The notes below the pieces were generated by a model. That model saw only the letters and a list, made by a program, of their open reading frames with translations. It searched no databases and was not told where the DNA came from. The position numbers and the translations under genes are program-made. A DNA stretch of 64,000 nt, taken from Cladocopium goreaui. Its lineage: Eukaryota; Sar; Dinophyceae; Suessiales; Symbiodiniaceae. The stretch is taken from positions 629,949 through 693,948 of the forward strand of contig CAMXCT020001780.1 of assembly GCA_947184155.2 (NCBI GenBank), given 5' to 3'. Shown here piece by piece: positions 5,786 through 41,530 of the stretch; position 1 is the stretch's first letter; every line of letters starts with the position of its first letter.

Positions 5786-5989
5786 CCCCATTCACCATCA
5801 TGTTGGCGTGCAAGTACCAAGGAATCCCAGCCCAGCATACCAGCGTGCCTTGCACAACATCGAAGTACACAATCGCAAAAATTAACAACCCTTTCAGGGC
5901 GGCGAGTCAGCCGATAGCCAAAAAAAACACAAATAGTCTCACCCTTAAGTATGAACGTGTGGTCCATGATTTTGAAACCGTAGGTTATG

Positions 5990-19160: not shown

Positions 19161-19379
19161 TAGATTGTAGATAAGTGGCGGGTGATCATATGTTATGTAG
19201 CCATAACCGACGTGCCAACACCATGAACAGAGGTGAATGGCAACCATTTGTCTTGGCAGCATGCGCAATGTGGCCGAGCAGCCCACGCAGACCGTCATGA
19301 GAGCGGACGGCTTGCAACAGGTTCTTGGCGGACGCAGAAGGTTGCCTCTTCGCACGGTGCGTCAAGTAAATGGTTGATG

Positions 19380-20150
19380 TCGCCAAGTGCCACACCTTCC
19401 ACACAGAATGGAGGTCGATGCTTCCAAATTCCAAATGCCACGCTTGCCACACAAACAGCCGCGGGCCCACGGCAACAACCGGGAACCAAGCGCGCCACCA
19501 GAGCCAGCCCAGTGCCATGAGTGCCACACCTGCCACACAAAGCGAAGGTCGATGTCGCCAAGTGCCACACCTTCCACACAGAGTGGAGATCGATGTCGCC
19601 AAGCGCCACACCTCCCACAAAAACAGCGCCACCAGAGCCAGCACAGTTCCACAAGTGTCACGCCTGCCACACAAAGTGAAGGTCGATGTCGCCAAGTGCC
19701 ACGCTTGCCAAACAGAATGGAGGTCGATGCTTCCAAATGCGACGCGTGCCACACAAACCGCACGGCGACAATGGCGACAAACGGAAACCAAGCGCGCCAC
19801 CAGAGCCAGCCCAGTGCCATAAGTGCCACGCCTGCCACGCAAAGTGAAGGTCGATGTCGCCAAGTGGCCTGCCATACAAAGTGGAAGTCGATATTGCCAA
19901 GTGCCACGGCTGCCAACAAACGGGAACCAAGCACACCACCAGAGCCAGCCCAGTGCCATAATAAGTGTCACGCATGCCACACAAAGTGAAGGTCGGAATG
20001 GAGGTCGATGCTTCCAAATGCCACACCTGCCAGACAAACAGCCGCGGCGCCCACGGCGGCAAACGGGAACCAAGCGCGCCACCAGAGCCACGCCGGCCGC
20101 ACAAAGTGAAGGTCGATGTTGCCAAGTGCCACGCCTGCCATGCAAAGTGA
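19380..20150. repeat. Higher-order tandem repeat around GTCGATGTCGCCAAGTGCCA
   Basis: Repeated motifs CACAAAGTGAAGGTCGATG, TCGCCAAGTGCCAC and GCGCCACCAGAGCCAGCC recur in partly shuffled order, with an apparent higher-order period of 150-300 bases. The array stays open in several frames, including a 405-codon minus frame that extends past it. The peptide simply repeats the DNA unit (LCGRRGTW, HRPSLCVAG), so I treat it as a minisatellite. Confidence 0.8.
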
Positions 20151-21289
20151 AGGTTTGTGTGTATGAGAGAGTTGTGTGTGAGGGAGTTGTGTTTATGTGA
20201 GCTGTGTGTGAGTAAGTTGTGTGTGTATGAGTTCCGTGTGAGTAAGTTGCGTGTGTATGACTTGTGTGTGTGAGTAAGTTGTGTGTGTATGACTTGTGTG
20301 TGAGTAAGTTGTGTGGTTGTGTGTGAGTCGGCGCGAGGCAGGAGGCGGGAGGCAGGAGGCCGGAGGAGCGGACGGGAGCGCACAACCAAAACAAGAACCC
20401 CACACAAAGATGTGGGGAACAAAAATCCTAAGAGATGCTGTGACGGTCCGGATAAATCTGGGAATCACGTTGGTACTGTAGATTCTTATTTACCTGATAG
20501 AAGACTGTCTCCCTTCCGTACTGGCACTGGTTCAAACAATGTCAGGGGTTCTCGGCAGACCACCAAATAGATCAACCCAAAGTTTGGACCACTGAAAGAA
20601 ACTAATAAAATTATTCGCACCAAAGACACCTCGTATTCTTCGGAATTGCACTTAGGCCAGCCCTCACGGGCTTCTGCGCAGTGCCATCTGCATCTTCAAG
20701 TTGGGTTCGCCTGAGAAGGTGTGAGAGCGGCAGCGCGACAAATTGAACCCCGCTAAAAATTCCACAGCACATCCAGTATAAGGTCTCATGGCGGGTAAGC
20801 ACTCAATCCCATTACACCTGGTGGAAGACCATAATTTAATATAATTTATGCATAATCACTTAGTCATAATTAATCACATTTAATCAATACTCAATTTTCT
20901 GCGGTGCTACCAGGCTGCTGGTGAGCAAGAACCTTCTTAAAAGGGTAAGAAACCCTGCCCACAAGAGGAAGTCAAGATTTTGGGGACCCACGATTGCCCC
21001 ATGCACAAAGAAAGACAGCAAAGGCGTTCTTCGCAGGTGAACTCCTCAATCAATTTTCCACCACCACAAAACCCCAATGTTTCTTTTTTTGGCTGGGGCT
21101 TCCAACGATTTGCCTTCCAGCTGCAAATTTACAGCATGAAGAAGTTGATCAAATCCTTATGTTTTGGACGGTGTTCACATTTCTGGAGGTCCATACACCC
21201 TGTTTCCAGGGGCACTAGCATGTCCTGATGTTCGATGGTTCTGCTATTTAATGAATTGTGAATGTCCCCAGTTCTTGTTTAGAATTGAT

Positions 21290-25510: not shown

Positions 25511-26517
25511 TGTGCCCAGGAACGGAGGTTGCCTTCTGGTCTGGTTTCGACCTCGGACTTAAAACACAACAAAAAATGACGCAATACAATGCATAATACA
25601 ATGCATTGCATGACAAAACGTCCTTATTTCCCGCGCAATTCTAAACATGTCGAAACATGTGCGCACTCATCCTGCCTACCCCTGACATGTTGAGAGGAGG
25701 AGCAACATGGCAAAAGAAGCACAAGTGGTTTTGCCTTTTGCCATGTTTTGCCTTTGTTTTTGCGACGAATGTGCCACTGGGTCCGACTTCGCTAGGATAT
25801 TGCATGATATTGCCCTGACCCCGGTTCGTGTTTCTCTTTTGCGTCCCACTATTCCGATCAACCATGCAGCGAGCATGAATGGCCGAATCGTTGCATTAAA
25901 ATTCATTAAACACCCCCCAGGTGAACATCCTACATTGGGAAGATTTCGTTTTGCAAGTTTGCTACGGCGCCCACGGGTTCTATATTTTAAATTCATTCAG
26001 GCATATTCACGCATTGGGTGTTCACGGCAAATGTAGCACTGCTGGTGAAATATAATTTGCATTAATTTGCTACAGCTACAAGAGCATACAAAAGTAACCT
26101 TCGGGGTAACCAGGGTGAATCACTAAGTAGTGGGGTGCCCAGGACGGTGACTCAAAAATTCCAAAACGGATTCATCCACCTGAGAGGTCGGGCGAAGCCA
26201 CGGCAAATATCACAGCTGACTTGGTTCTGACTTGTAGGTACGGAGCGTATTTGAATGTATTTAAATGTTTCTAATGCAAAATATATGAACAGTCGTAAGT
26301 ATTTGGAGGTTTGCGCCAACGTATTCTGACATATATTTCGCATTTATTTCGCCATAAAATCTGTATAGTGGAGGGAGCGCCAGCGCGATTCAACCGACTG
26401 CAAGAAGAGAAGAAACTCACAATATACTCCCCTGACAGGTGGGGGAAGACCATAAACATAAGAAAAGCACCCCAAGAGCCACCAAGAGCCACCAAGGCAC
26501 AACAGCCAAACAAATTC

Positions 26518-26658
26518 TGTAGAAACGGGTTAGAAACCGCTAAGTGCCACAATAATAACAGATACTACACCCTGCACGCAGTGCACATTTCTTGAGCCAG
26601 TGCAACACAGTATGGAGGGGTGAAAAGCTAGTGCATACATTACTACTGTGCAACAACA
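26518..26658 (-). repeat. Candidate 3' LTR
   Basis: In sense orientation it starts TGTTGTTGCACAGTAGTA and ends GTTTCTACA, giving the usual TG...CA ends and a length of 141 bases. It shares its first 18 bases (one mismatch), a TTTTCACC block, TGGCTCAAGAAAT and the terminal GTTTCTACA with the sequence upstream of ORF1. The middle is much more diverged than expected for an intact element. Confidence 0.55.
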
Positions 26659-26664
26659 CCCCCC
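26659..26664 (-). other. Candidate polypurine tract (G6)
   Basis: Six G in the sense strand lie immediately before the TGTTG start of the candidate 3' LTR. This is where plus-strand priming occurs in LTR elements. The tract is short but positioned exactly. Confidence 0.4.
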
Positions 26665-26925
26665 GTGCAGTGTAATTACCGCTACGGGAGATGAAGCTGC
26701 AAATTAGGCTATGTACAGTCAGTAAGGGATGCCGTTAGTTAACCAATTAGGGAAACAGACAACAAAACCCCAAACCCGACCACCGCCTATCCTTCGGTAA
26801 TGCTTTTGTGCTTTCACCTCAGTGTTGCAAAGGTTGACAAACAAGAGCAAAAGTGACAATGCATAACGTTCGGCGCAACTTCAAGTATTAAGGCCAACGG
26901 ATGCAGTGAACATCAATTCGGTCGA

Positions 26926-27237
26926 ATGCAGCAGTATCAAGTTTTGGGCTCTACCGGGCTTGCGGTCGAACATGCACAGTGGAAAAAGGACTTGGCCCGT
27001 TACATAGGCCTGCGTTTCCACGCGGCATCAAAAGTTCTTGTGGACGCCCGGGAGCTTGCCAAAGCAAAGCTTTATGAATTAAAGCAAAATGCTGAATTCG
27101 GTTTCGATGTGAACCCGCAGGGAAGCTTTCAGAAATGCTTCAAAGATGCCTTAACTTCGCAAGGCAAGAGCTTCCGCTCTGCGGTTCATGCAACTACCAG
27201 CCGTGTGCTATGCAAGGAGGAATCATGGCAAGAATAA
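26926..27237 (+). CDS. Antisense ORF in the 3' region of the copia element
   Basis: A 103-codon ORF on the strand opposite to the element, between ORF2 and the 3' LTR. Composition is ordinary for a protein, with a Lys/Ala-rich amphipathic stretch (VLVDARELAKAKLYELKQNA). No domain was recognised. Some plant LTR elements carry antisense ORFs in this position, so it could be a passenger gene. It could also be an unrelated host exon if the true 3' end of the element lies before 27237. Confidence 0.35.
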   Translation: MQQYQVLGSTGLAVEHAQWKKDLARYIGLRFHAASKVLVDARELAKAKLYELKQNAEFGFDVNPQGSFQKCFKDALTSQGKSFRSAVHATTSRVLCKEESWQE

Positions 27238-27515
27238 GATGAGTGCCAAATGCCTGCTTCAAATTATATGCATTCAAAGCATTAATGGAACTTTTGTGAA
27301 CTTGACTAGGTTGGCAAAAATTCCGACTTAGCACACTTGTGTTGGAAATGATGGTGGAATCGCTCACCCACCTGTGCAAATGAAGCTAATCGCCTAATCG
27401 AATTAAATCCGAAAAGGCAACAGCTTCCGCTGTGCGACACCGTGCAATGAGAGGAAAAAGCCCCGCCTCAGATGAAGATAAATCCACCAGGCGAGAGGTT
27501 CCCCTCCGCGGTGCC

Positions 27516-30500
27516 TCAGCGATAGCCCGACCAACGTCGATCCCGATATTGATGGCCTTGGTTTCGACGGCGCCACTCTTCCCACTCGTGGTCAGTCCAC
27601 TGATTGTAGTAGTCATTCCATTCCTGCTGACTGTAGCCATGAGTGGGCCCCTGATGAGAACCGTAGCCAGGACGCGAGGACCTGGTGACATCTGGGTTCT
27701 GCTGCTTCGTTGCAGGCAGGGGTCGGCTTCCGCCTTCCGTGTCCTTGGCCTCCGTGAGGGGGCGCAAGATGTCATCGACATAGCTGAGAATGTCGGCATA
27801 CACATCCTGCTTGGACAACGCAAGGGATTGGAACGTCGTGTTGGCGACGCTCAAGACCTCGAAACGCTCGGCCACCGGAATCAAGGCATAGGCGGCCGCG
27901 AACTGGTTGGCTCTGTAAAAGCGGTTCTTGTACCAGATGAGGACATGATCATCCACAATGATCGTCTTCATCTGTTCCTCCTCGTATGCGACCATGCACA
28001 TACGCGCTTTGTACTGCCGAATCTTTCCAGTTCGGATCTCCTCTCGCGTGCGCTTGATGGAGGGAAGCACCACATTGCCCAAAACTGTAATCCAATGCAT
28101 ACACCGAGGTGTAAGGTCCTGGACCGCACAATTAAAGGCGTAATGGGCGTCCGTTCCCAGACGCTGTAGCAAGGTCAGTCCAGCTTTTCTCGCCTGTTTC
28201 ATATATGAACGGGCGTGATTTTTGAGGACTGCCGCAACAGATCTGATCTGCTTGGCACCTTGGGTGGTGCCTGCTACGTCGTCGTCGCCCAGAAGGTCCA
28301 ACGTCAGCTCGAAGCCCAGCTTCTCCGCCAACTCTTCCAAGCGAAACACCTGGCACGCACGGCGCATGTCGGACATAGTCGCCAGCGACAAGCCGCACGC
28401 AAGGCACACCAACATCCCCTCAGGAAAGATCTTCCTGCACCGGGGGCGTGTCAATTCTGGCATAGCCAACATTGAGACATACCGCCAGCGCGTGAGGTTC
28501 CCCTCCGCGGAAGGGTCAAATGCCTCCTGATCGAAGCGATCAGAACGGCGTTCCCGCGCGTTGTCAGGGGCGATGTCGAAGCCAGCAGCAGTTGCCGTCG
28601 GCTTGCGTGCCACACAAAGGAGATTGGTGAAGTTGAGCGGCCTTTGCTTGAACTTCGGGAGCAACTCATCGACGACAGGATATGGTGTCGGAACTTCCTT
28701 GTAAATGAGCGGACGTCGCAAGGTGATGACATCCTTCCACTGGTCGTACTCATTCACGAACATGTTCTTCAACACCTCCAGGTCCGAAACCTCGTACCTT
28801 TCAAGTTCGTCGTAGTTGGGAGTGCCCTTCCGAGCCTCGTTCTCCTGCCAAGTGAGGGCGTTCTCGGAGGCCTTGTCCCGAAGGTACTTCTTCACGCCGT
28901 TGTAGCCATGATTCGCCCAAAGGTATTGCGACTTCTCGCAATCGAATGCGTAGATGAGGCAATGATTGGGCACCCAGTCCTCAGTGATGAGTGCACCGGC
29001 CAAGGTTTCCACCAGGCGAAGACCATAGTGCAGAGCACAATCGGTGTCGATCGCGATGCACAGCGGTCTGTTCGTTCTGACGCCTGGATCCTTGCCTTCG
29101 ATTTCCCAAGGCGCATGGCGGGTCATATAAGCATGACCCTTGCATGAAGTGGCCCCTGGAAAAATCCCCGTGCAAATGATCTGCTGGAGGGAGTCCCATG
29201 AAGTGTAATGGTAAATAACCTTAAACTCTTCTGGGACCTCGGCTTCCGCCAGGTGAGGATAAATGGGGACCCTGGGGTAGAATCCCTTCTTCAAGTCCTC
29301 GACCGTGAACTGGTAGTCAAGCGAGATGATTTGCTTAACCAATGGAGCCGTCCCCACCTTGTCAATGAGCGACTGGTCATGGCCTTGGCAGGCCTTCACG
29401 TGGGTGATGCGGTATGGCATGTCCATGGTTGTCAGTTCCCCGACAATTCCAGCCTGAATACGGCACATGAACCTGTCCTGAGTTCGAAGAATCAGGTACA
29501 AGTCCTGTCGCGAAAGCTGAGCACGATGCCGCTTTCGGAGGTACGTGTACATGGACTCAAAGTTCACGTACAGCTCCTCATCAAATTCAGGAGGAATATG
29601 GCGATGGTGCGCCTCGAGGAATTTGTGATCATACCCACGGAGAAGCCCGGTCACCCTCTTCGAAAATTTGAAATCATCATGATTGAGTCTTCCAAGGTCC
29701 CTCAGGCCCGGCAGGTCGGTACATCGAACGATGAATTCCCTGCGCTCGCCCGTTCCCGGGGAGTAGAAGTACCACTTAGGGTATCCCTCTGGTCGCAAGG
29801 GCGGTTCAGCCGGAGGCTGAGGTCCACCCGTTCCCGGGGGAGGAGCACTGGCCATAGGCGGCTCCTTCTTGGCCATCTTCGGGGCAGGCTCCGACGAAGA
29901 CGTAGCTGCAGGCGCCGATGACTTCTGTGGAGGTGCCCTCGGTGAGGTTGTTGTCAACGTTGCAGGCGGTGCCTTGAAAGGCAAAGCTTTGGGCATAGGA
30001 TGGTCCGCAGCTTCCGCTGGGAGTGCAGGTGGCTCCGGCTTGGGGGATCCAGTTGCACTCTTCGGAGTCGGTGGCGGACTGGGCTTTGGGGACGCCATGG
30101 GAGACGTTCCCGTCGCCGTTGAAACCTTTGGGAGCCGCGGGGCAGGCTTGGGCTGAATCATGGTAGCCTGATCCCTCATCTTGGGTTTGATGAACTGGCT
30201 GACAGTGTCCCCGATCACCTGTGCGATGCCGCTCGAAGATGATGCCGCTTCGGGTGAGGAAGCCGCCTTCGACTTGGCCTTCGACACGATCTGGACAGTG
30301 GCAGCAGGGTCACCCGCGCGAAGTTTCTCCTCGGCGGTTTTGGGCTCCTCAAAGATCTCCCGTTCCATCTGACGATGCTTCTCCTCATCCGTCAGGTCAA
30401 AGCGACGAATGATGATTGTACCATCTTCGGTCTGCTGCATGGATTCCTGCCGAAGTTCAAGCTTGGCAGGGTCACGTGTGACGTCGGTGTCCAAGATGTT

Positions 30501-33500
30501 CACTACGCCAGAACCATCCAATCTGAAGTCCACAGCATGGATCTTGTTCATCAGATGGGAGCGCAGCTTCCGCTGGCTAAACATTGATGCTGAGCCGCCG
30601 ACGATGGGTTCTCTGAAGACAATCTCCTCGTCAGCATCCGGCTCGTCAATGTCACGCTCGTCGGAAACACCCGGCAACCGATCCAAAAAGGGCTTGAGGA
30701 TGGCGTCGATGAGCTCACCATCCATCTCCGGCTCTTTGACCTCATGCGGTTCAAAGTGCTCGGGTTCCCCCGGCAGTGCAGCATCCACGGACTCCAAAAG
30801 CTGCCAGTTTGATGAGGCCACAGTGGCATCATCCTGCACCGTAGGAGCCTGTGCGACTTGGGCACGTGCGGGGTCAACTTCATTGGGAAGCCGTTGCCCT
30901 TTGGGTCGGGTCTCCTTCACATAGATTTCCCAACCGTCCACGTCCATGGAGACCAACACTTCTTCCATCTCTTCCCATTGAGGGTTGTTTTCAGGTTGAG
31001 GGTTGGCCAGCGATTCCTCGCGGCGCTTCTTCATCTCAGCCATCTCAATCAATGGCTTGCACGACCGAAGTCGAAAAAGATGATAGCCGAGAGCGCCAGC
31101 TTCGGAATAGAAGCGAATGCACTGGAGACGGTTGTGCTCCGAATTCTCCATGTGCTGGCCGTCGTATCGTGTAGTACACTTGATAAGCGACGTGGCATCG
31201 AGGACGCAGAGTCCACGTTTCCTCAAAGCCTCAGCTTCGCGAATCATTTGACGGTCAAAATCGGGGTGCAACCCATACCCCCTGCCGTACCATGGCATGA
31301 TGAGGACGATGTTCCCAACGTCGGCACGTGTCGTCAGCTTAACGAGGTCGTTCAAAGCGGAGAAATGGGTATTGACCCTTTCCTCCATGAGATCGTTTGC
31401 TGCGTCACGGCGCTTTTGGGAGTAGCATGCCATCTCCTTGTCAAGCCAATCACAGTGAAGGAAGCCGTAGTTCCCAAAAATATCGTTGCCAGCATAAGAG
31501 ATGACAATGACAGATGGGCGAGAGGTTCCCCTCCGCTGCAAACATTCAAGAGAGTGCTCGACGCCCTTGATGATGTCAGGCAGCCCACGACCCCATTTGA
31601 GATCGTGCCAGACCGTCTTGCGGCCTGGTGGGAGGAGGTCCGGCTTCTCCTTGATGTACTCGCCGATGTTCCTGCGCGTAGAAGCGTAACCGTCGACCAT
31701 GTCCACAAGTGCCATCGAAGAATCTCCGGCAAAGATGAAGTTGGCCTCAGGTTCCCCTGGGCATACCATGCCTCTCAGCGAGAAGCTGGAAACGCCGTCG
31801 AGGAGCTTCGCGTCTTCTGGGCTGACGTCGCGGAGGTAGCCTTTGGCCAACAGCGAATGGTCAGTGTTCCCCATGATGGATGTCAAATCCGAAATCACAT
31901 CAGCTTCGTTTACCACACGACACTGCGTGACAGAGCCAAAAATGCTCCCAGTCAACGCATACCACGCCTTTCCATTGGGCCCCAGAGTCGAATCATCTTC
32001 AGTGGACTCCGGTTCCCCGGGTCGAATGCCAGCAGCATCCGCAGCAGCGGAATAGTCTGCCTCCTCGACCTCTGCTTGTGGAAAGCGACGAAAGTAAGCC
32101 ATGGTAGGTGATGTAGAAAGCGAAACAGCGCAGAGTGCAATAGAAGTCGTCGGTTCGGGTTTTGAGCTGGTCGCTGCAATGAAAGCTCGATGGATCATGT
32201 CCGTCATCTGAAAGGAATACGATTCAGTTTCCTTCAAGTCATGACCTCTGCCTTGAACGTGGTTATGACTACCATCACATGACAATCCATCAAAAGCAGT
32301 GACAATTGAATCACAATCGGTTAAAATAGCCCATGGTTTCTTTATAGACTCACCTTCTTTGTTGACAATACCAACCATGCATCCATCAAATGTGACTCTA
32401 ATGAGCTGGTGTTTTCCACAAAACTTTTCAACTCGGTCAAACTTCCAGTAGATGCAATGGGCTGGCCATTCAATTGCAATCTTGGGACTCAAATGACGAA
32501 TAAGATTGAGAAAATCGACCATTGATGACCATATCTTTTCAAAAACATGTCGATGATATTCAACCTTAAGTTTGGCTGATTCATGTTGCAAGTTCACATA
32601 TGACCATGTTGTGCCACCAGCGCAAGGGATGCTAATCCAAATCAAAACTGGACAAGGTTGTACTGTTGAACTCTCAATTGCTTGAACAACTTCATTCCGA
32701 ATGTCCATTCTGTTGGATCTAGATGTAACATCTCTTTCCTCTGTGCATCTGACGACATAACAATCTCTTGAATGCTTCCTTGAACGATCACCAAGCTTTG
32801 AATCAGGTCCACAACAAAATTCAATAAGTACCCTGCTATGAGACGCCACTGAAGGGCAAGCAGGTTCCCCTGCGCGTTGCTGAGATCCCGACACTGTTGA
32901 AGGTGCAGGTTCCCCTGCGCAGGCTTTCATCTTCTGTGGCTCCTTCCGTGGAAGGGGCTGTGATGAAATACCCATCAATCGCAGAGCTGATTCCCACTTC
33001 TCGGAGTTGGTAAAAGGCTTGGTGAGGATGTCTGCCGCTTGAAGCGATGAACCAACATAGACAAGTCTGAAATGTTTTCGTTTGAACTGTTCAGACAACC
33101 ATGACAAATTCAATCTTTGGGTTTTGTCAGTGTGCCTAAATGACGGTGACCTACCACTCTCAAGGATACGAATGGTCGCTTGGTTGTCCTCAAGGAAAAT
33201 GACCTCAAGACTACCGGGTCCTGCCATGTACACACTCTCATCCCCCCGCTTTTCAGATCCCGTGTACTTAAAATCAGTTAATGCAGATCTGATTTCCCGT
33301 GACTCAACCCCATAATCAACTTCGTTTGGTCCAGGTATCCTGAAAACAGTTTTCCCCGTCCATTCGAAATCATAGATCATGTCAGCATCAGGAGTCGTCC
33401 AGTCCCATGTCAAATCAAATTCAACACCACCAGTTTTAGTTTTCATGATAGTGTACCTTTGCCTTGCCAATCCCTGAGGGTTCACTGGACAATCCGAATC

Positions 33501-34121
33501 AATTGGGTTATACAGTTTATTTCGTGGTTTGACATGAACTCTGGTAACTTGGTTGGTGAATGGACTGTGCTCCCAATAATCCTCTTTGGGGTTTTTGGCA
33601 CGAGTTTCCACTCTGCGGGACGGCTTTTGTTGAGTGCTATCTCCCCCCGCGTGACGTATGACTGACCACAGGCAGGAGGAAGGTAATCCAACAGCACGCA
33701 ACGCAAGGTTTGCCGCCGTGACTTCAGCCTCTGTCGATGACATAGCCGTTGAAGTCTGCTTCTTTGAAAAAGCTGTGAGTGGGTAAAACGTGTTTGGTCC
33801 TACCAAAGCGAGGAGGCAACCACTTGTAGATCTGTTGTCATGTTCCCCAGCATGATCTGAATCTGCAAACAACCATGTTTTGCAAGCCTCAGGTGGGTCC
33901 CCAACGAAACCAACCATTGTACGATCAAGGGTTGTGTGTATGTAACACATTAATCGGTGAAGACTCTTGTCGCAATCAGGTGACCATTTTGTAACCCTAC
34001 TTGCTAAACCCTGAGTAGCACGGAGAAGATCAAACCTAGCCATTCGTGCTGCGAACAGCACCTTCATTAGCACACGTGATGCTATGGGCTGGAGTTCCCC
34101 CCGAGCTTCTGCTTCGTCCAT
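27516..34121 (-). CDS. Copia ORF2: RNase H plus MTase-, SGNH- and Tpt1-like domains (2201 aa)
   Basis: Residues 20-370 are the copia RNase H: FADSDHAG (Asp87), SSTEAE (Glu131), EDNQATI (Asp312) and ADILTKPF. An unusual ~170-residue stretch separates the second and third acidic residues. Residues 430-650 resemble a cytosine-5 methyltransferase fold: IEFCCGPDSKLG, SIPCAGGTTWS with Cys500, IAIEWP. Residues 790-1020 look like an SGNH hydrolase: GDSS (Ser801), YAGNDIFGN (Asn879) and DGQH (Asp987, His990). A Pro/Ala/Ser linker (1270-1450) leads to a Tpt1/KptA-like domain (1486-1730): FSKRVTGLLRG, VKACQGHD, YHYTSWDSL, GALITED. The last ~470 residues are unassigned. The start is the ATG inside TAATG, overlapping the ORF1 stop. 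Domain functions are inferred from motifs only. Confidence 0.88.
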   Translation of the reverse strand: MDEAEARGELQPIASRVLMKVLFAARMARFDLLRATQGLASRVTKWSPDCDKSLHRLMCYIHTTLDRTMVGFVGDPPEACKTWLFADSDHAGEHDNRSTSGCLLALVGPNTFYPLTAFSKKQTSTAMSSTEAEVTAANLALRAVGLPSSCLWSVIRHAGGDSTQQKPSRRVETRAKNPKEDYWEHSPFTNQVTRVHVKPRNKLYNPIDSDCPVNPQGLARQRYTIMKTKTGGVEFDLTWDWTTPDADMIYDFEWTGKTVFRIPGPNEVDYGVESREIRSALTDFKYTGSEKRGDESVYMAGPGSLEVIFLEDNQATIRILESGRSPSFRHTDKTQRLNLSWLSEQFKRKHFRLVYVGSSLQAADILTKPFTNSEKWESALRLMGISSQPLPRKEPQKMKACAGEPAPSTVSGSQQRAGEPACPSVASHSRVLIEFCCGPDSKLGDRSRKHSRDCYVVRCTEERDVTSRSNRMDIRNEVVQAIESSTVQPCPVLIWISIPCAGGTTWSYVNLQHESAKLKVEYHRHVFEKIWSSMVDFLNLIRHLSPKIAIEWPAHCIYWKFDRVEKFCGKHQLIRVTFDGCMVGIVNKEGESIKKPWAILTDCDSIVTAFDGLSCDGSHNHVQGRGHDLKETESYSFQMTDMIHRAFIAATSSKPEPTTSIALCAVSLSTSPTMAYFRRFPQAEVEEADYSAAADAAGIRPGEPESTEDDSTLGPNGKAWYALTGSIFGSVTQCRVVNEADVISDLTSIMGNTDHSLLAKGYLRDVSPEDAKLLDGVSSFSLRGMVCPGEPEANFIFAGDSSMALVDMVDGYASTRRNIGEYIKEKPDLLPPGRKTVWHDLKWGRGLPDIIKGVEHSLECLQRRGTSRPSVIVISYAGNDIFGNYGFLHCDWLDKEMACYSQKRRDAANDLMEERVNTHFSALNDLVKLTTRADVGNIVLIMPWYGRGYGLHPDFDRQMIREAEALRKRGLCVLDATSLIKCTTRYDGQHMENSEHNRLQCIRFYSEAGALGYHLFRLRSCKPLIEMAEMKKRREESLANPQPENNPQWEEMEEVLVSMDVDGWEIYVKETRPKGQRLPNEVDPARAQVAQAPTVQDDATVASSNWQLLESVDAALPGEPEHFEPHEVKEPEMDGELIDAILKPFLDRLPGVSDERDIDEPDADEEIVFREPIVGGSASMFSQRKLRSHLMNKIHAVDFRLDGSGVVNILDTDVTRDPAKLELRQESMQQTEDGTIIIRRFDLTDEEKHRQMEREIFEEPKTAEEKLRAGDPAATVQIVSKAKSKAASSPEAASSSSGIAQVIGDTVSQFIKPKMRDQATMIQPKPAPRLPKVSTATGTSPMASPKPSPPPTPKSATGSPKPEPPALPAEAADHPMPKALPFKAPPATLTTTSPRAPPQKSSAPAATSSSEPAPKMAKKEPPMASAPPPGTGGPQPPAEPPLRPEGYPKWYFYSPGTGERREFIVRCTDLPGLRDLGRLNHDDFKFSKRVTGLLRGYDHKFLEAHHRHIPPEFDEELYVNFESMYTYLRKRHRAQLSRQDLYLILRTQDRFMCRIQAGIVGELTTMDMPYRITHVKACQGHDQSLIDKVGTAPLVKQIISLDYQFTVEDLKKGFYPRVPIYPHLAEAEVPEEFKVIYHYTSWDSLQQIICTGIFPGATSCKGHAYMTRHAPWEIEGKDPGVRTNRPLCIAIDTDCALHYGLRLVETLAGALITEDWVPNHCLIYAFDCEKSQYLWANHGYNGVKKYLRDKASENALTWQENEARKGTPNYDELERYEVSDLEVLKNMFVNEYDQWKDVITLRRPLIYKEVPTPYPVVDELLPKFKQRPLNFTNLLCVARKPTATAAGFDIAPDNARERRSDRFDQEAFDPSAEGNLTRWRYVSMLAMPELTRPRCRKIFPEGMLVCLACGLSLATMSDMRRACQVFRLEELAEKLGFELTLDLLGDDDVAGTTQGAKQIRSVAAVLKNHARSYMKQARKAGLTLLQRLGTDAHYAFNCAVQDLTPRCMHWITVLGNVVLPSIKRTREEIRTGKIRQYKARMCMVAYEEEQMKTIIVDDHVLIWYKNRFYRANQFAAAYALIPVAERFEVLSVANTTFQSLALSKQDVYADILSYVDDILRPLTEAKDTEGGSRPLPATKQQNPDVTRSSRPGYGSHQGPTHGYSQQEWNDYYNQWTDHEWEEWRRRNQGHQYRDRRWSGYR

Positions 34122-34123
34122 TA
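34119..34123 (-). promoter_or_regulatory. TAATG stop-start overlap between copia ORF1 and ORF2
   Basis: The TAA of ORF1 (34123-34121) and the ATG of ORF2 (34121-34119) share one A. Pol homology is collinear across the junction (RT before, RNase H after), so this is where one polyprotein is split. UAAUG coupling by termination-reinitiation is known from the silkworm LINE SART1. A frameshift is the alternative. Confidence 0.75.
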
Positions 34124-37100
34124 TGGGACGTGCAATTTTGTCATCTGGGAAGGAGTTGACACTTTCTTGAACTTAACGTTTGGTCCTGCTAGTTCAACGT
34201 AGCGGTCAAGACATTGTTGTAAGAATTGTCGCATATCATATTCGACCGTGTTGACATTCTTTGTCATGCACTTGGATTTATGTTGCTCAAGCTCATCAAG
34301 AAAAGTAAATCCTTGTGCCCTAGCCGCTTTCTTTGCTCCTGACTTGTCTCTTGTCTTCTTAGCTGCTGCCAAAACTTTTGATGGTTCTTTGATGGATTCG
34401 TCCACGAAGTAGGTTGATCCCGTCCACCAAAATGGAAGTCCAGTTGGGTTTTGAGATCCCATATCATGAACATATTCTTTGAGTTCATCTTGGGTTTGGC
34501 AAGGCTCACACACGGTTAGCCGGTGCGTTCCCGCCCGGAAGGATGTATTGTCCTTCGGCTTGTCCTGGAACTTCTTGCGAGGTTGCAGGTGATGATGAAC
34601 ACAAACTCCAAGCTCTGGCATGTGCTCCCAGTAGTCCTTTGTTCGGCGGGCCGGACTGGCTGGCTTACTAGAAGGATCTGGGATGCTAGCATCGAAGACA
34701 TGAGCAAATGGATGAGCACTTACATCAAGCTTGACATTCTGTTTGAATACATGTTCACATCCAAGGTATCTGCCGGCATCTTCTGGGGTATCCATGTCGA
34801 TCTGAGAAGAAATCAACTTCCACCCTTCGTCAATGTTTTTGGAAGGTCCTGACATCTTGAAGTCATCAACATATACTCCAAGCAACAACTTCAATTTCGG
34901 ATGCCAAAACATTGAAGGCCAACATTCAGGATAGAGTGGGTGAAATCCAACTGCATAAAGGGCTTTCTCACAGTGACGTTGCCATAGACCCCCCGAATCA
35001 GGGTGACCATACAATGCCAAAATAAGAAGAACAACTGGATCCTTAAACACACCAATCCATTCCTTCGGCCATCGGTTCCTTGGCAATCTGATCCAAGTTA
35101 AAATTCCTTGCATCAACGCTTGGGTGTAAGCTTGCTTACCATCACCTTGTGATGTCCGGTTCCCCGGCATGGAGCCATAAGCATCCAATGCTTTTCCTGC
35201 CTCCATATTGGCCGGTGAACTTCCGAGCTCCGCGAACAAAGCAACATCAGCCGCCTCGTCCTTCACGTTGTTTCCATGGAAAACGGTGCGACCCTTAAAC
35301 TTGCGCATGGGGTCACCCTGCGGTAGCTCACTTCCCTTCTCGACACAAATCTCGAAGATCTTGCCTACGTGAACTTTGGTCTTGTTCTTGATGGCTTCCC
35401 TTGAAACATCATCCCATTCCCTTACAGTGGAATAATCCCATGCACCCTTACTTGTAAGGTTATTCCATTCCTTATCGAGTGCAGCTTGGGCAGCCGGAGT
35501 GTTATTGATCTCCTTCTGTCCAACGGGTCTTGCCACAAGTGCATTGGAAAAATGAAAGCACATGAGCTCTGACTGATCCTTAAGCTTGTCTCTGTGGCAA
35601 TGGTTTCCACCATGCGAGCCCCCCGGATTATAGGTGACTGGCATTGCGGGAATGAAATCATCTGATGGTTCGGCATTCTTGGATTCTTTGACAGCTGAAT
35701 TGGCAAAACGTTCTATGACCCTGTTGTACTTACGTTCTTTGGCAACTGCAGCATCATGTTTTTCAGCTGCCTCTTTCAACAAGGCTTCACGTTTAGCCCT
35801 TTCTCTAGCCGCTTTAGAGGCCCCCCGCCAAAGAAATGTTGGAATGTCCTTGGGTTTGGAGGAACCTTTATATCGTCTACCCTTAAAACCACTAGCGTCG
35901 TAGTATGAAGGGTCATCCTTTGAGATAAATTCTGATTTTCCAGTTTTGGGGTCAATCACTTCGATGTCATCAGACTCAAGTCCAGCTTCACGCATCAATT
36001 GTTCAAACTCCTCTTCGCCCTCCACCGGTCCTGGCTCAACAGCTTTCCTTGGGGCAACCAAGTCTTCAATTGTTTGAGCGTCCATCTTCTTTGGATCTGG
36101 TGGAGCATCAAGGCTAAGAGAATCGTATAAACCTTCCCTAATGGCCTTATACCTACCTTTCAAAGGGAAAACAAAGGGTCCATCAGGTACAGTGAGTTGA
36201 TTGACACGAACAACTTGGACAGATTCGTTGAAATCCTTCTCCATAAGGTCCTTCAATGATGCTACAAGAAATTCATTTCTCCAAACGAAACCTGGTTGCA
36301 TGGCATATCCCAAAAAGACACCTGGATTCGAAGTTGGGTCAAAACGCAAATCTTTCTTGGGTTTAAGTTTCGGCCCAGTCCAGTAGTCAATGCGAGCCCC
36401 AAAAGGAATGTTGGGTCCCTTGAACTTTTCCCCAAAACGAAGCTCCCAAGGAGATAAGATTTCAGGGTGGTCCTGGATATTGTGTGCCATACACCAATGT
36501 CGTGCAGCATAACTCCAATAGGAGTGGTGAAGCCCTGCCTGTTCAAGGTTTACTCTAGTCCCTTCAAGTACGGACCTGAGATTCCTCTCGGCGACTGCGT
36601 TCGACTTAGAGACATAAGCAACACTAGTGTTCTGTCTCCACCCAACTTCCCGACAAGCGAGCTTGATGGATGGCGCTGCATCGGAATAAAACACTCCGAC
36701 TTCTTCACCAGGTGCAATGAAATGCCTAAAAGCTAAAACACAATCCTTGGCATGACTTCTAGCTGAAGGATAGATCCAACGAAAATTCGTAGCGACATCT
36801 TTCATGACCATTGCAACTCTATCACCATCGATTGATTGTTCGTTGGCATCCCTAGTCACGAGATGATCCCCAGTGATGTGATCCCCAAATTTGTTGGATT
36901 CCACAGTCAAAGATTCCCCTTTGCTACGTTTGGTAGGTTTGTACATCTTTGCACATTTGCACGTTTCACAAAAAGGATTCTTCGGGGTGTGTGTCATGTT
37001 GTGCCTAAGGGTCCTGGCCTCATCTCGAAGTGCAGCTTCACCGCGATCAACTGGTTTTGGTTCAGGCAATTGAAGTCGACCGTCAACTGGTTCTTCAGGA

Positions 37101-40100
37101 GCTTCGGCTTCATCTTCCGAACCTTCGACAACGTCTGGTGTCATTGCTGCTGGCGGCCCGGGTGCAAGTTCACCAGGAAAGAATTCTTCGAGGTCGTCGA
37201 TAGCTTGTCCGGGAATTTCATCGTCATCAGCGATGGAAGCCTCGTAAGGTACTTCGACCTCCTCGACTTCATCATCGGACTCGGCACCGACGGCTGACAT
37301 GCGAGACCTTCGAACATGTGAGATGATGGGCTTGCCGTTCCCGGCAGCGGAGTTCCATGAAAACGGAATCCCTACTGCAGCGGGTACCTGGCCATCTCTG
37401 GATGGTAGATAAGGAACAAAATCTTTAACTTCAAGTTTGATCTTAGTTCCATCTTTCTTCTTGAAATAAGGGCGACTAAAGCTCTTCCAAACAAAATCCC
37501 ATCCATCTTGAATACATCTCATCCCTACCGATATTACAGCCGGGGTATCAGGAAGAACATATGGATGAACTTCTTTGTCGATGCAATCAATGTGAACAGA
37601 AGCTTGTTGGTCAGCTGATTGGGAACCATTTGCAGTGATTAATTCAAGGGGTTCATGAGAGTGATACACGATATCATCGGGAATCATCTTACTGCAAACT
37701 AAGTCCTGTGCACTACCAGTGTCAGCAATCCATGCTATCTCAGCGGAAGCGTTACGCTGCTGGGACGGCATATGTCCTGGCAGGGCATTCAGGTCGGAAC
37801 GGATGCAGTGGCGACAGCCGATATCACTGTCACATTCAAAGCTGCATTTGCAAAGCTTACCATGCAACTCCCGAAAGACAGCTGATTGCAACATCTGTGC
37901 TGCAAGTATGGCATCACTTTCACGTGCTTCGATCGTATCTTTACGAGTACGATCGTCCTTGGTGATGCGAACTGGATTGAAAGTTCTTTGTTTGGCTTGG
38001 CACGGATATAAATTACAATTTTGCTCGATGGGAACTTCGAAGATTTCATCGTTGCCCCCAAATGAAACAGTGCGATTGGGTGTAACTGGCATAGCAAAAT
38101 GCTGGTTGAAACAATGCGGAGAGGCGATGCCTTCCGGCACGCGATGAGTGCTGGTCGAAGGGTTAACGACTGCGACCATCATCAGAGCGCGCATCAGGCA
38201 TACTGCAGCTGAGCCAGAGGAAGATGGTTTTCCCCCTTTGTCCTTGAGACTCTGAGAACCTCTCGAGGAATTGGAACCTCTGCTCGACGATCTTGAGCGA
38301 TCGCCCTTCTTCTTTCTGTTCTTCTTCTTCTTTTTCTGGCTCTTTCCACGCTTGTCATCTTTTGTAGATGCAGCTGCAGGCTTTGGTGGGTGTTGGAAAG
38401 CACAGTCATTACCTCGCTGACATTTCCCTGCCTTCCAAAACTTGCACACCTGGTTCCTAGATCCTGGAGACAATGAACGACCATCGCCCCTTGACTTGGA
38501 TCTGGACTTGCCTTTCTTACCTCCGCCTTTGCCTTTGTCTGCCTTTTCATGTCGGTATCGGCAATCCTTTCCCCTGGTACACTTGCCAGCCTGGAAGTCG
38601 TAGCAAATGCCAGTGGGCTTTCCCGTGGATGTAGGCCTCGTGGGTGCTGGCGTTGCGTCTCTTTTGCCTGAAACAGACTTCTTGGTGGCCTGGCGCATCT
38701 TTTCAAGACGTCTCCTCTCAAGGTAGTCCCTTGCAGCTTTCACGAGAAAATCATAAGAGCGGTTGGATTCCCCCTCCGGTGTGCGATCATACACAGCCAG
38801 ATCATGAGAGAGAGGCTTGAAGTTCTTGATGGCGTTGTGAAAGTAGGCTTGCTTCCACATCATGTCAGGCTCGGAAGTCATTCCAGCGATCACAGCGTCC
38901 CATCGGGTGATGAAACCTCTGAGATCATCATTGACCAAGGTAACAGCCATGAGGTCCTCAATGTCGTACACAGCACCATGCTTCCTACTTGTGCTAAAGT
39001 GTTTATGAATCATGAGCAATGCTTGACGTCCCCTAGCTGGTGTCCCTGACTTGGCTTGTTCTTCTTTAAAGATGTCAAGTTGCCGTGCAAAGTCCCCTTC
39101 GCAGATGTTGGTGAGCGAAGACATGAGCTTTGCGTCCAGGGTCACGAATTTACCTGAGTCCTTCAAGGCATCGACAGACTGATCTGTCCTGAACACTTCC
39201 TCCACCCATTGAAAGGCTAGGTCGGGTTTAGCAGAAGCAGCAATTATGGCATCCCTTACTCGGATTCTCCAATTCCTATAATTTTCGGGTTGTGGGAATT
39301 TAGGTACAAGGATCCTATCAGACTCTTTGGCCTTAGTATCACTAGTCCTAGAACGCTCCAAGGCCCTTTTGACCTTACGTGCAAAGGAACTCTCAGAACC
39401 CGAACTTGATGTCGTAGGGGATGTCGATGATGAAGAAGGTGAGGATGAAGGATCTCTTCGCCGTCGTCGTCGCGAGCGGCCACGACTAGCTTTGCGGTCC
39501 TTCTTCTTGTCTTTCTTGTCTTTGCGACCTCTCTTGTCGTCATAGTCATCATCACCATCGTCATCTCCTGGAGGTCCACCGCTGGGAAGTCCCGGTGGCT
39601 TCAAAGGTTCTGCCTGAAAATGTTCGTCGTCAGCATCTGATGAATGCTGAGGCTTCTTGCTTCCCGAAGCTAACTCTACAATGGTTGGACCCTTGGGCTT
39701 CGAGGATTGTGGAATGGGTTTACCTGAACCATAGTGAATCATAAGTCCAGGAGTTCCCTCCAGAGGTTGAGACTTTAAATTCCGGATGAGCTCTCTCTGC
39801 TCCTTCCGAAGCTTCTCAATCTCCGCCTCGAAGTCCTTCTTCTGAGATTCGGCCAGCTTATGCATGTTCAAAGCGTGTTGATTCATTGCATCAATCTGAG
39901 TGCGGTACTCCGCAAGTTCTGAACGTGCTTCCAGCAGATCAGCGTTGGACTTCTCCGCAGACGATGTCAAAACACCTGCACTGTTGACCACATGAGTCAG
40001 TTCGGCACTCAGTTCCCTGATGCGATGATCCTGCGCTGTGACTTGCAGTTGAGCAGACTTCTGCTCACTCATCGCCTGGGCGGCCTGCTCGTTCAACAAA

Positions 40101-40564
40101 AGGTTTTTCCTGGATATTTCTTCGGCTGCTTGTTGTTCGATGCTTGCAAGTTGATCTCGAGCTTCACTCACAAGCTCCATGCGTTGACGTTCCATGACCT
40201 CAGAGTGGCGCACGTTTGCCTCACTCTGCAATGCCTGCTGTTGAGCAGCCATAAGTTGGTTCGCCAGGCTCGGATCAATACCCTGTTGTACCACTGCCAA
40301 ATTGGCGGTACGCTGATCAACATTGTTAAAGTTGATGGTATTGAGTTGACTAATTTCAACACTTGATTCAACGACACCTGGCATGTTCCTGCGTGGATCT
40401 TGGCGGCATGGGTCAAACTCTTCATCCAAGTAACTCATATCACCTTCCGTCGTCGTAGCCGCACCTGAGTGGATCACCATTTCCTCCGGTTGTGATGTGT
40501 TCGCCAATGCTAAAGCAGCCGTGGCGTTCCCGCCCGGGGCAGGCAACGCAGGGGGATTTGACAT
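34121..40564 (-). CDS. Copia ORF1: Gag-like, protease, integrase, reverse transcriptase (2147 aa)
   Basis: Residues 105-265 are a Gln/Glu/Ala-rich likely coiled coil. A basic/Ser stretch (340-395) resembles a nuclear signal. Residues 395-625 are Gag-like. Two CCCH fingers follow: C654-x7-C662-x5-C668-x3-H672 and C707-x7-C715-x5-C721-x3-H725. Protease is AWIADTGSAQD (Asp948). Integrase has an HHCC zinc site (H1188, H1192, C1199, C1202) and acidic residues in GDHITGDH, FYSDAAPS (Asp1295) and AVAERNLRS (Glu1326). Reverse transcriptase spans about 1690-1940, with DGKQAYTQ (Asp1808) and YVDD (1898-1901). The C-terminal ~200 residues lead into RNase H, which is in ORF2. The start is the first ATG after the leader, with none in frame upstream. 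No stop or frameshift interrupts the frame. Confidence 0.93.
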   Translation of the reverse strand: MSNPPALPAPGGNATAALALANTSQPEEMVIHSGAATTTEGDMSYLDEEFDPCRQDPRRNMPGVVESSVEISQLNTINFNNVDQRTANLAVVQQGIDPSLANQLMAAQQQALQSEANVRHSEVMERQRMELVSEARDQLASIEQQAAEEISRKNLLLNEQAAQAMSEQKSAQLQVTAQDHRIRELSAELTHVVNSAGVLTSSAEKSNADLLEARSELAEYRTQIDAMNQHALNMHKLAESQKKDFEAEIEKLRKEQRELIRNLKSQPLEGTPGLMIHYGSGKPIPQSSKPKGPTIVELASGSKKPQHSSDADDEHFQAEPLKPPGLPSGGPPGDDDGDDDYDDKRGRKDKKDKKKDRKASRGRSRRRRRRDPSSSPSSSSTSPTTSSSGSESSFARKVKRALERSRTSDTKAKESDRILVPKFPQPENYRNWRIRVRDAIIAASAKPDLAFQWVEEVFRTDQSVDALKDSGKFVTLDAKLMSSLTNICEGDFARQLDIFKEEQAKSGTPARGRQALLMIHKHFSTSRKHGAVYDIEDLMAVTLVNDDLRGFITRWDAVIAGMTSEPDMMWKQAYFHNAIKNFKPLSHDLAVYDRTPEGESNRSYDFLVKAARDYLERRRLEKMRQATKKSVSGKRDATPAPTRPTSTGKPTGICYDFQAGKCTRGKDCRYRHEKADKGKGGGKKGKSRSKSRGDGRSLSPGSRNQVCKFWKAGKCQRGNDCAFQHPPKPAAASTKDDKRGKSQKKKKKNRKKKGDRSRSSSRGSNSSRGSQSLKDKGGKPSSSGSAAVCLMRALMMVAVVNPSTSTHRVPEGIASPHCFNQHFAMPVTPNRTVSFGGNDEIFEVPIEQNCNLYPCQAKQRTFNPVRITKDDRTRKDTIEARESDAILAAQMLQSAVFRELHGKLCKCSFECDSDIGCRHCIRSDLNALPGHMPSQQRNASAEIAWIADTGSAQDLVCSKMIPDDIVYHSHEPLELITANGSQSADQQASVHIDCIDKEVHPYVLPDTPAVISVGMRCIQDGWDFVWKSFSRPYFKKKDGTKIKLEVKDFVPYLPSRDGQVPAAVGIPFSWNSAAGNGKPIISHVRRSRMSAVGAESDDEVEEVEVPYEASIADDDEIPGQAIDDLEEFFPGELAPGPPAAMTPDVVEGSEDEAEAPEEPVDGRLQLPEPKPVDRGEAALRDEARTLRHNMTHTPKNPFCETCKCAKMYKPTKRSKGESLTVESNKFGDHITGDHLVTRDANEQSIDGDRVAMVMKDVATNFRWIYPSARSHAKDCVLAFRHFIAPGEEVGVFYSDAAPSIKLACREVGWRQNTSVAYVSKSNAVAERNLRSVLEGTRVNLEQAGLHHSYWSYAARHWCMAHNIQDHPEILSPWELRFGEKFKGPNIPFGARIDYWTGPKLKPKKDLRFDPTSNPGVFLGYAMQPGFVWRNEFLVASLKDLMEKDFNESVQVVRVNQLTVPDGPFVFPLKGRYKAIREGLYDSLSLDAPPDPKKMDAQTIEDLVAPRKAVEPGPVEGEEEFEQLMREAGLESDDIEVIDPKTGKSEFISKDDPSYYDASGFKGRRYKGSSKPKDIPTFLWRGASKAARERAKREALLKEAAEKHDAAVAKERKYNRVIERFANSAVKESKNAEPSDDFIPAMPVTYNPGGSHGGNHCHRDKLKDQSELMCFHFSNALVARPVGQKEINNTPAAQAALDKEWNNLTSKGAWDYSTVREWDDVSREAIKNKTKVHVGKIFEICVEKGSELPQGDPMRKFKGRTVFHGNNVKDEAADVALFAELGSSPANMEAGKALDAYGSMPGNRTSQGDGKQAYTQALMQGILTWIRLPRNRWPKEWIGVFKDPVVLLILALYGHPDSGGLWQRHCEKALYAVGFHPLYPECWPSMFWHPKLKLLLGVYVDDFKMSGPSKNIDEGWKLISSQIDMDTPEDAGRYLGCEHVFKQNVKLDVSAHPFAHVFDASIPDPSSKPASPARRTKDYWEHMPELGVCVHHHLQPRKKFQDKPKDNTSFRAGTHRLTVCEPCQTQDELKEYVHDMGSQNPTGLPFWWTGSTYFVDESIKEPSKVLAAAKKTRDKSGAKKAARAQGFTFLDELEQHKSKCMTKNVNTVEYDMRQFLQQCLDRYVELAGPNVKFKKVSTPSQMTKLHVP

Positions 40565-40642
40565 GGCGAAAACCTAGAGGAGACAGAACGAAAAGTGCAA
40601 GATAAGGAAACCAGCGATCGCTTCGCGATACGGCTGATAACC
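40565..40642 (-). other. Copia leader with primer-binding-like site
   Basis: Directly after the LTR end the sense strand reads GGTTATCAGCCG (40642-40631), similar to the GGTATCAG primer-binding sites of plant copia elements that use the initiator tRNA. It is not an exact match, so the primer is uncertain. Just downstream, ATCGC TTC GCGAT (40617-40629) can fold into a 5-bp hairpin. Confidence 0.45.
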
Positions 40643-40774
40643 TGTAGAAACAAGTGATCAACCACAACAGACCACAAAACACAGCTACGGTATTCGCACT
40701 ATTTCTTGAGCCATGAGCACGCCGATATGTAAAGGTGAAAATAGTGATACGTGGGATACTACTGTGCATCAACA
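40643..40774 (-). repeat. Candidate 5' LTR
   Basis: 132 bases in sense orientation, starting TGTTGATGCACAGTAGTA and ending TTGTTTCTACA. It matches the candidate 3' LTR at both ends and in the block TGGCTCAAGAAAT (40713-40701), with a diverged middle. The position directly before a primer-binding-like site supports the call. A (TA)n run adjoins its outer edge. Confidence 0.6.
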
Positions 40775-41354
40775 TATATTATATATATATATATATATAT
40801 GATCGGTGAATAATCGTGACCCCCATGTTTACCATACATAGGTAATCATGAATTAAAATGATGTAATTGATGTAAATAAATCATGCAATTATTGAGCAAA
40901 TTGGATTACAAATGTTTGATTTACTTAATGAATGGAGTTCTGAGTGATGCAATCTTATTCATGGAGGACTACTACCTACCCAATGTCTGATAATACGGGT
41001 GATTCTTTTAAGTTTTCATTGAATGCACAAGGACCCCCAGTTAGATGGGACCCCTATTCCCATCCAATGATTTAATGGCGGCTTGGAAGACATATGTAAG
41101 GGACCGCAGAAAGGGAGCGTGACTTCCATTAATTTCACATGGGTCCATCAAATCTTGACTTCCGATACACCAAGCAGGGGAAGCAGGGCCTGCTACAGTC
41201 GATATCCAACCACCTTCCACCCAAGCAAGCTGACACCGCTCAGCCCAAGAGTAAGAACTAGCAAACACGCACATTTGATGCAAAAAACATCAACTGTCCC
41301 ACCTTAGCCTACAAGTTCCGAATGAAATGTTGAAGGGTTAGATCTCATCAAAAT

Positions 41355-41530
41355 ATCAACATATATGAGCCATGGTCAATACTCACTATATGGTTGATGG
41401 TCATCCCATCCATAATAAGGATCCTTATAATGGTTATTATATGTTATTATAAATCTCTATGAACCATTGGATGACTAGCCCCTATTAATGGTTATTAACC
41501 ATGAGTATTGACCATAGCTCATATCAACCT
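41355..41530. mobile_element. Small foldback element (~175 bp)
   Basis: ATGAGCCATGGTCAATACTC near the left end is matched in inverse by GAGTATTGACCATAGCTCAT near the right end, within longer imperfect arms that include ATATCAAC. The interior is AT-rich and non-coding. Confidence 0.6.

Follow-up and report, generated by a model that had tools for sequence, protein, structure and literature searches.

The window analysed here, a 64-kb stretch of the genome of the dinoflagellate Cladocopium goreaui (assembly GCA_947184155.2, contig CAMXCT020001780.1, positions 629,949 to 693,948 of the forward strand), contains on its minus strand an element that we classify by its sequence as a copia-type retrotransposon, with an integrase upstream of an RVT_2-type reverse transcriptase and a Gag protein carrying zinc fingers. 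A small bulged hairpin with a GGAA loop recurs along the sense strand of this element and is the subject of the present analysis. In the window copy the element is divided between two open reading frames (ORFs):

34121..40573, minus strand: ORF1, a stop-to-stop frame with Gag and its CCCH fingers, integrase and reverse transcriptase
38546..38608, minus strand: first CCCH zinc finger of Gag, at about residues 656-676 of ORF1
38384..38449, minus strand: second CCCH zinc finger of Gag, at about residues 709-730 of ORF1
27516..34172, minus strand: ORF2, a stop-to-stop frame with RNase H, an SGNH-like block and then a weak Tpt1/KptA match (PF01885)

Both Gag fingers score above the Pfam cut-off, in line with an earlier prediction made from the sequence alone. 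The RVT_2-like reverse transcriptase (E 5e-4) lies under Pfam's cut-off; an AERN integrase motif upstream of YVDD in ORF1 was recognized by eye, as were the RNase H and SGNH-like labels of ORF2, and PF07727 is present in several homologs of the element proteins. The frame changes from ORF1 to ORF2 at 34121-34172, and 8 of the 23 other copies listed have a single open frame of 4351-4422 residues. The stretch after the ORF2 stop is taken to be the 3' untranslated region.

A bulged GGAA hairpin recurs on the sense strand

We defined a strict form of the hairpin as four Watson-Crick inner pairs closed by a GGAA loop, a single-nucleotide (nt) bulge in the 3' arm, and three Watson-Crick outer pairs. 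Scanning the window for this form retrieved 21 hairpins, all on the minus strand and all between 27019 and 40530, with none on the plus strand and none elsewhere in the 64 kb. The GGAA tetramer itself occurs 114 times on the minus (sense) strand of 27491-40533 vs 56 times on the plus strand. Among other tetraloops placed in the strict geometry, notable recurrence in the window scan was seen for ATAT and TATA only. When G-U pairs were allowed, 25 of 118 GGAA tetramers in the sense element formed the hairpin, as did 1 of 577 in the rest of the window (0/308 on the plus strand, 1/269 on the minus strand outside the element). As controls for hairpin frequency we used the opposite strand and real stretches of the same genome; 20 other 10-kb stretches yielded no hairpin in the strict form (0/2124 GGAA) or with G-U pairs allowed (0/2119).

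A covariance model built from the 21 strict sites gave 32 matches with E<1, all sense and all at 27005-40540. The model recovers its 21 training hairpins by construction; the 11 matches beyond the training set are likewise all sense and inside the element. An open scan, which accepted a bulge in either arm, a 1x1 mismatch or a perfect stem, listed 27 GGAA stems of at least 6 pairs, with a 3' bulge in 22, a 1x1 mismatch in four and a 5' bulge in one. The sites, all on the minus strand, are:

40519..40537: strict hairpin near the Gag start, frame residues 13-19
40005..40023: strict hairpin within Gag
39746..39764: hairpin with one G-U pair, found by covariance model and G-U scan
38124..38142: strict hairpin that follows the CCCH fingers
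37330..37348: strict hairpin ahead of integrase
36574..36592: hairpin with one G-U pair, encoding the integrase motif AERNLRS
35597..35615: strict hairpin between integrase and reverse transcriptase
35152..35170: strict hairpin (site 35163) within a conserved gap-free reverse-transcriptase block
33598..33616: strict hairpin in the RNase H region
32005..32023: strict hairpin (site 32016), one pair changed to G-U in copy L058
31744..31762: strict hairpin (site 31755) directly before the SGNH-like block, the deepest conserved site
31518..31536: strict hairpin (site 31529), complete in 8/10 mid-diverged pieces, bulge T/A/G
31006..31024: strict hairpin, scan and covariance model
30757..30775: strict hairpin, scan and covariance model
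30560..30578: strict hairpin, scan and covariance model
30004..30022: strict hairpin, scan and covariance model
29823..29841: strict hairpin, scan and covariance model
29745..29763: strict hairpin (site 29756), one pair broken in both L058 and L059
29236..29254: hairpin with one G-U pair (site 29247), G-C to A-T compensatory change in L058
28820..28838: hairpin containing one G-U pair, fully Watson-Crick in L058
28490..28508: strict hairpin (site 28501), C-G to T-A compensatory change in L058
27491..27509: strict hairpin (site 27502) beyond the ORF2 stop
27417..27435: strict hairpin (site 27428) beyond the ORF2 stop
27164..27182: strict hairpin (site 27175) beyond the ORF2 stop
27008..27026: strict hairpin (site 27019) beyond the ORF2 stop
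28144..38781 (span): seven weaker covariance-model matches (E 0.0015 to 0.5), at 28144-28167, 28996-29020, 30097-30120, 32853-32878, 32900-32923, 34517-34541 and 38757-38781

The stem base reads GC...GC in 13 of the 21 strict hairpins, and a C directly follows the hairpin in 20 of 21. The bulge base varies (A 8, T 8, C 3, G 2), and the stem sequences are mostly unlike one another, although sites 31529, 28501 and 27502 have almost one stem in common. Every codon phase is represented among the loops (9, 7 and 5 of the 21 sites in coding sequence), and 4 of the 21 strict hairpins lie beyond the ORF2 stop. The hairpins are denser toward the 3' end, with 16 of 25 within 5.1 kb, and show no regular spacing (coefficient of variation 0.82, P 0.24). 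No Rfam family matches 26000-41500 (E up to 1). These hairpins are an RNA-level feature whose shape, rather than sequence, is conserved.

The original prediction had counted at least 28 sense GGAA hairpins, 22 of 28 with a 3' bulge, in all three frames and nowhere else in the window, and the scans confirm the observation, with counts of 21, 25 or 32 depending on the search and a share of 3' bulges (22 of 27 in the open scan) close to the one given. Its range of 27491..40533 encloses most sites, but the strict hairpins 27428, 27175 and 27019 fall below 27491.

Conservation between copies and families

We compared the window element with two other copies, L058 (82.8% identical over 8.4 kb) and L059 (90.8%), whose alignments each cover 16 of the 21 strict sites, taking 60 bases as flanks. 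In L058, changes were found at 4/224 paired bases, 0/64 loop bases and 3/16 bulges, vs 301/1760 flank bases; in L059 the corresponding counts were 2/224, 0/64 and 1/16, vs 151/1826. The bulge, an internal control, changes as often as the flanks (4/32 vs 452/3586, Fisher p 1.0). L058 has four paired changes: two together form a compensatory C-G to T-A replacement (28501), a third creates a G-U pair (32016), and the fourth disrupts pairing at 29756. Pairing is kept at the G-U site 29247, where G-C is replaced by A-T. Third codon positions in stems and loops are strongly constrained (L058: 3/72 changed vs 882/2477 outside, p 5.5e-10; L059: 1/78 vs 543/2760, p 1.4e-6), as are first codon positions in L058 (0/72 vs 255/2479, p 9.5e-4) and the stretch after the stop in both copies (L058: 0/72 vs 62/527, p 3.2e-4; L059: 0/54 vs 39/404, p 0.009). 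Sites outside the strict set are less well kept, with 30110 and 34531 altered or partly missing in L058/L059. Ten mid-diverged pieces (L038-L047) retain the complete hairpin in 8 cases at each of two sites: at 31755, L047 has an A-C mismatch and L042 has none of the hairpin, and at 31529, L046 has a C-C mismatch and L045 forms only 5 pairs. By these patterns of change, the hairpins are under purifying selection as RNA structure, with the bulge free to vary.

A DNA palindrome is disfavoured, because the exceptions tolerated are G-U but not A-C (4 vs 0 of the eight window sites with exactly one non-Watson-Crick pair) and because bulge side and strand are fixed. The lone A-C case is that of L047 at 31755.

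Site 31755 reaches furthest. This hairpin encodes CPGEPEA just before the SGNH-like block, and homologs have CPGEPEA, CPPEGEA, CPPEGEV, RPPEGEV, SRPEGLV, CRSEDLV or APLEPAV at this position. Ten of the 11 homolog peptides can encode a full hairpin with G-U allowed, the exception being APLEPAV, while no other among the 435 position-and-frame windows of this alignment exceeds two hairpin-compatible peptides. The peptides leave the loop unfixed (seven other loops fit equally). A re-paired stem was thus shown to be possible from homolog proteins before the DNA was seen. In the DNA of a second copia family (family B; 15 kb, one copy), with 30% protein identity in this block, the site reads GCC CACC GGAA GGTG A GGC, as compared to GCC CAGG GGAA CCTG A GGC in the window: two pairs are flipped and the hairpin is retained, in 11/11 family B pieces fetched. 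The prediction of structural rather than sequence conservation is upheld, with pairing conserved and compensated between related copies.

We also scanned for hairpins of this geometry with GC at the base and seven pairs, G-U tolerated, closed by any loop. The window element has 16 such GC-base hairpins in sense, 14 of them with GNRA loops (13 GGAA, 1 GAAA), and 2 in antisense, neither GNRA. Family B has 9 in sense, all GNRA (5 GGAA, 4 GGGA), and a third family, C (13.4 kb, 86% identical to homolog P0048 by protein), has 6, of which 4 are GNRA (3 GCAA, 1 GCGA) and the remaining two loops are CGTG and ATGC; each of these families has a single antisense hairpin, non-GNRA. An ATGC loop with the same geometry and GC base is seen in family C copies L060 and L062. 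The 20 other stretches (400 kb of strands) contain 19 GC-base hairpins, three of them GNRA, all GCAA and all within one copia copy in L023. When the base was left unconstrained and 6 or more Watson-Crick pairs were required, the GNRA share was 25/30 in window sense, 8/11 in family B sense and 5/11 in family C sense, vs 0/9, 1/5 and 0/7 in the respective antisense strands and 9/264 in the other stretches. Family B GGAA hairpins found without base demand have the GC...GC base in 5 of 7 cases. Since families B and C carry GGGA, GCAA and GCGA loops, the conserved unit is a GNRA-capped bulged hairpin whose loop letters differ by family. This agrees with the GNRA class predicted for the loop. The finding also survives adapted forms of the refuting comparisons proposed with that prediction, since the frequency is near zero on the plus strand and in other genome stretches and pairing is kept between copies.

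Two hairpins shared by L060 and L023 repeat the bulge-only pattern of change (paired 0/28, loop 0/8, bulge 1/2, flank 17/240), and L062 gives the same result at the same two sites; a third hairpin (L060 2167) has one pair broken in L023. The second loop base of GC-base GNRA hairpins is G in 13/14 cases in the window element and 9/9 in family B, and C in 4/4 in family C. The window exception, at 29105, has only 5 Watson-Crick pairs.

The hairpins also leave traces in the encoded proteins. Ungapped homolog peptides with 1-3 changed residues remained fully hairpin-compatible in 17 of 32 cases, as compared to 5.5 expected, in rows that are not independent of one another; the null places changes at random residues, and gapped, missing and more-changed rows were dropped. 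At 37330..37348, all five ungapped rows with 1-2 changes stay compatible. Hairpin-coded residues are kept somewhat more often than 25-residue flanks in the close homologs P0003 (49/56 vs 286/384) and P0086 (83/84 vs 529/569), but this does not hold for every distant homolog (P0015, 12/35 vs 121/250). Among 121 homologs, near-identical ones included, PEG occurs 181 and GEP 97 times, vs 43-66 for the other four orders of these residues. The hairpins are the better explanation of this excess, and together with the GEP to PEG swap at 31755 it seems that RNA structure drives protein sequence here. The structure would then be strong enough to shape the encoded protein and to be visible from protein databases alone.

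Candidate readers of the hairpins

The hairpins look like a built-in label read by the element's own proteins or by the host. We propose, with a probability of about 0.5, that they are dispersed recognition sites for the CCCH-finger Gag of the element, used in packaging. The sense RNA carries some 25-32 copies of one cis-acting module, consisting of a GNRA tetraloop, four pairs, a free base in the 3' arm, three pairs often ending in GC...GC, and then a C. Each hairpin would be a putative protein-binding site, most likely for Gag with its two fingers, and many sites together could let this reader select and condense the roughly 14 kb genomic RNA for packaging. Gag is the first candidate because the loop letter follows the family; a free bulge, a variable stem and a fixed loop would suit recognition through the loop and the helix shape, and many sites, denser in the 3' part, would suit packaging or condensation of genomic RNA. 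More tentatively, each family may carry its own address in the second loop base, with G for the window family and B as against C for family C; matched by the family's own Gag fingers, it would let lineages that share a nucleus package their own RNA only.

To our knowledge, it is poorly understood how long terminal repeat (LTR) retrotransposons tell their own RNA from that of the host and of rival elements. Such an address code, if true, would be the first case that we know of in an LTR retrotransposon of self-recognition through dispersed sites read by shape. A small defined module, present 25-32 times per element with a loop base varying by family, makes the choice of own RNA directly testable.

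Several observations weigh against this reading. Families B and C carry fewer hairpins than the window element, and two distant copia pieces, L001 and L002, have no GGAA hairpin of this form, no covariance-model match better than E 0.08 and no sense GC-base hairpin. Constraint at the second codon position is not significant in L058 (1/72 vs 126/2479, p 0.26), nor at the first and second positions in L059. In back-translated homologs, the excess of GGAA with a 3' bulge is weak (0.63 vs 0.33 per sampling in shuffles), and by this difference GGAA ranks second of 256 loops, after GATG. The mean inner-stem probability (ViennaRNA) is 0.99 with 5-nt flanks and falls to 0.88 with 15 nt, 0.63 with 30 nt and 0.27 with 60 nt; at 60 nt the hairpins' own flanks do worse than flanks swapped among sites (0.27 vs 0.51, permutation p 0.0008), with no difference at 30 nt (p 0.30). 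In predicted folds with 60 or 100 nt on either side, the hairpins meet stronger competition from their own flanks than from swapped ones, and no constant alternative pairing partner was found in the flanks. Compared with dinucleotide shuffles, the sense strand shows only a modest excess of structure (mean z -1.43 in hairpin windows and -0.70 in others, with -0.61 and -0.50 on the antisense strand). Because own 60-nt flanks lower the stem probability below that of swapped flanks, the modelled equilibrium fold does not appear to favour display of every hairpin; with stem probability this low in long flanks, display may therefore need protein, co-transcriptional folding or translation. Finally, a host protein is equally possible as the reader.

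In this best-surviving of the alternatives, which we hold to be rather unlikely as a whole, a host RNA-binding protein would read the hairpins for mRNA stability, translation, export or silencing. It would fit hairpins that occur both within coding sequence and beyond the stop, in sense only, and a geometry common to three copia families in one host, including the GC...GC base of most family B GGAA hairpins. However, a second loop base that is near-constant within families and differs between them is hard to explain by one host reader, and the few GC-base GNRA hairpins of the 20 other stretches all lie in a copia copy.

A role of the hairpins in reverse transcription or RNA dimerisation, through strand transfer, pausing or kissing, is improbable. 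The genomic RNA does carry many of them, densest toward the 3' end, where minus-strand synthesis starts, but their mostly different stems offer no common duplex for strand transfer, and GNRA loops are not self-complementary. Less probable still are translation-pausing hairpins at the borders of polyprotein domains: many coding hairpins lie in poorly conserved linkers (judged by eye, not counted), but four follow the stop, one is inside reverse transcriptase, and pausing does not need a fixed loop and bulge.

The tiny mobile hairpins considered in the original prediction, inserted singly, deserve very little weight. The nearly common stem of 31529, 28501 and 27502 and the location of some sites in gapped protein linkers would fit such units; this candidate was rejected, as no homolog row shown, with identities as low as 31%, has a gap at 35163, orthologous sites stay filled in other copies and, in one case, across families, stems change with compensation, and all hairpins are on one strand. 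That the hairpins are a by-product of a peptide repeat (GEP or PEG, for example), to which the excess of these residue orders might point, is hardly credible and was rejected given the three codon phases, the post-stop copies and the constrained third codon positions.

Hairpins read by shape, bulged or GNRA-like, are familiar from the MS2 and PP7 coat-protein operators and lambda boxB; the former have the bulge in the 5' arm and loops that are not GNRA, and boxB has a pentaloop. The element hairpins have the bulge on the other side (3' in 22/27, 5' in 1/27). No protein akin to the readers of these operators turned up here, in an analysis that made no search aimed at one. The nucleocapsid knuckles of human immunodeficiency virus 1 (HIV-1) are of the CCHC type, whereas the element's Gag fingers are CCCH. 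In the excerpt of a review at hand, these knuckles bind the GGAG tetraloop of stem-loop SL3 in HIV-1 Psi, and swapping out the GGAG loop had no significant effect on packaging (PMC7599994). By analogy, and as far as this excerpt goes, the case shows that Gag fingers can read such loops. Like the element hairpins, SL3 is short, has a purine-rich tetraloop and belongs to a retroelement with a zinc-finger Gag, but it is one leader hairpin with GGAG, which is not GNRA, while the element has 25-32 dispersed hairpins with GGAA, spread over coding and post-stop sequence rather than placed near a 5' leader.

Dispersed packaging signals are described in excerpts on two viruses. Human parechovirus 1 has degenerate stem-loops with a common loop motif, conserved between strains (PMC5431903); these are like the element hairpins in their many sites with a common motif conserved beyond the surrounding sequence, and unlike them in that the element is a retrotransposon with a GNRA loop, one fixed geometry of four pairs, bulge and three pairs, and protein binding that is putative. 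In hepatitis B virus, the core protein uses dispersed packaging stem-loops with an RGAG loop motif (PMC7612645), again in a reverse-transcribing genome, but with another loop and, in the excerpt, no mention of a fixed bulged geometry. The open-licence literature yielded nothing relevant on dinoflagellate or Symbiodinium elements with hairpins or tetraloops, or on retrotransposons with dispersed packaging hairpins.

Further features of the element and the window

The flanks of the element, 40696-40774 and 26583-26658, match at 75.6% over 82 columns, the sole terminal-repeat-like match between them. Both segments contain GGCTCAAG, which we take to resemble the end of the dinoflagellate spliced leader. 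One 19-base hairpin sequence has 159 exact copies in the genome (1.17 Gb, 6202 contigs), vs 0 for its reversed control. Several homologs have Symbiodinium source names, and LTR Copia is the most abundant superfamily in Symbiodinium according to a 2018 retrotransposon paper (PMC5890265), whose main text mentions neither 'hairpin' nor 'RNA structure'.

Two scans of viral contigs found no relative. The contig collection contributed the distant pieces L001 (3.6 kb) and L002 (3.0 kb), with 48-49% identity. Both are related to dinoflagellate copia and stand in records labelled as bacterial metagenome-assembled genomes (Chitinophagia, Kiritimatiellae), probably as contamination.

Within the polyprotein of the retrotransposon, 28980-29516 matches the RNA 2'-phosphotransferase Tpt1/KptA (PF01885) with E 0.003, below the curated cut-off, and many of the homologs listed carry the same label. 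Elsewhere in the window, diverged tandem repeats occupy 19364-20154 and 5976-6457, and the GC content of 4001-6000 is just 14%.

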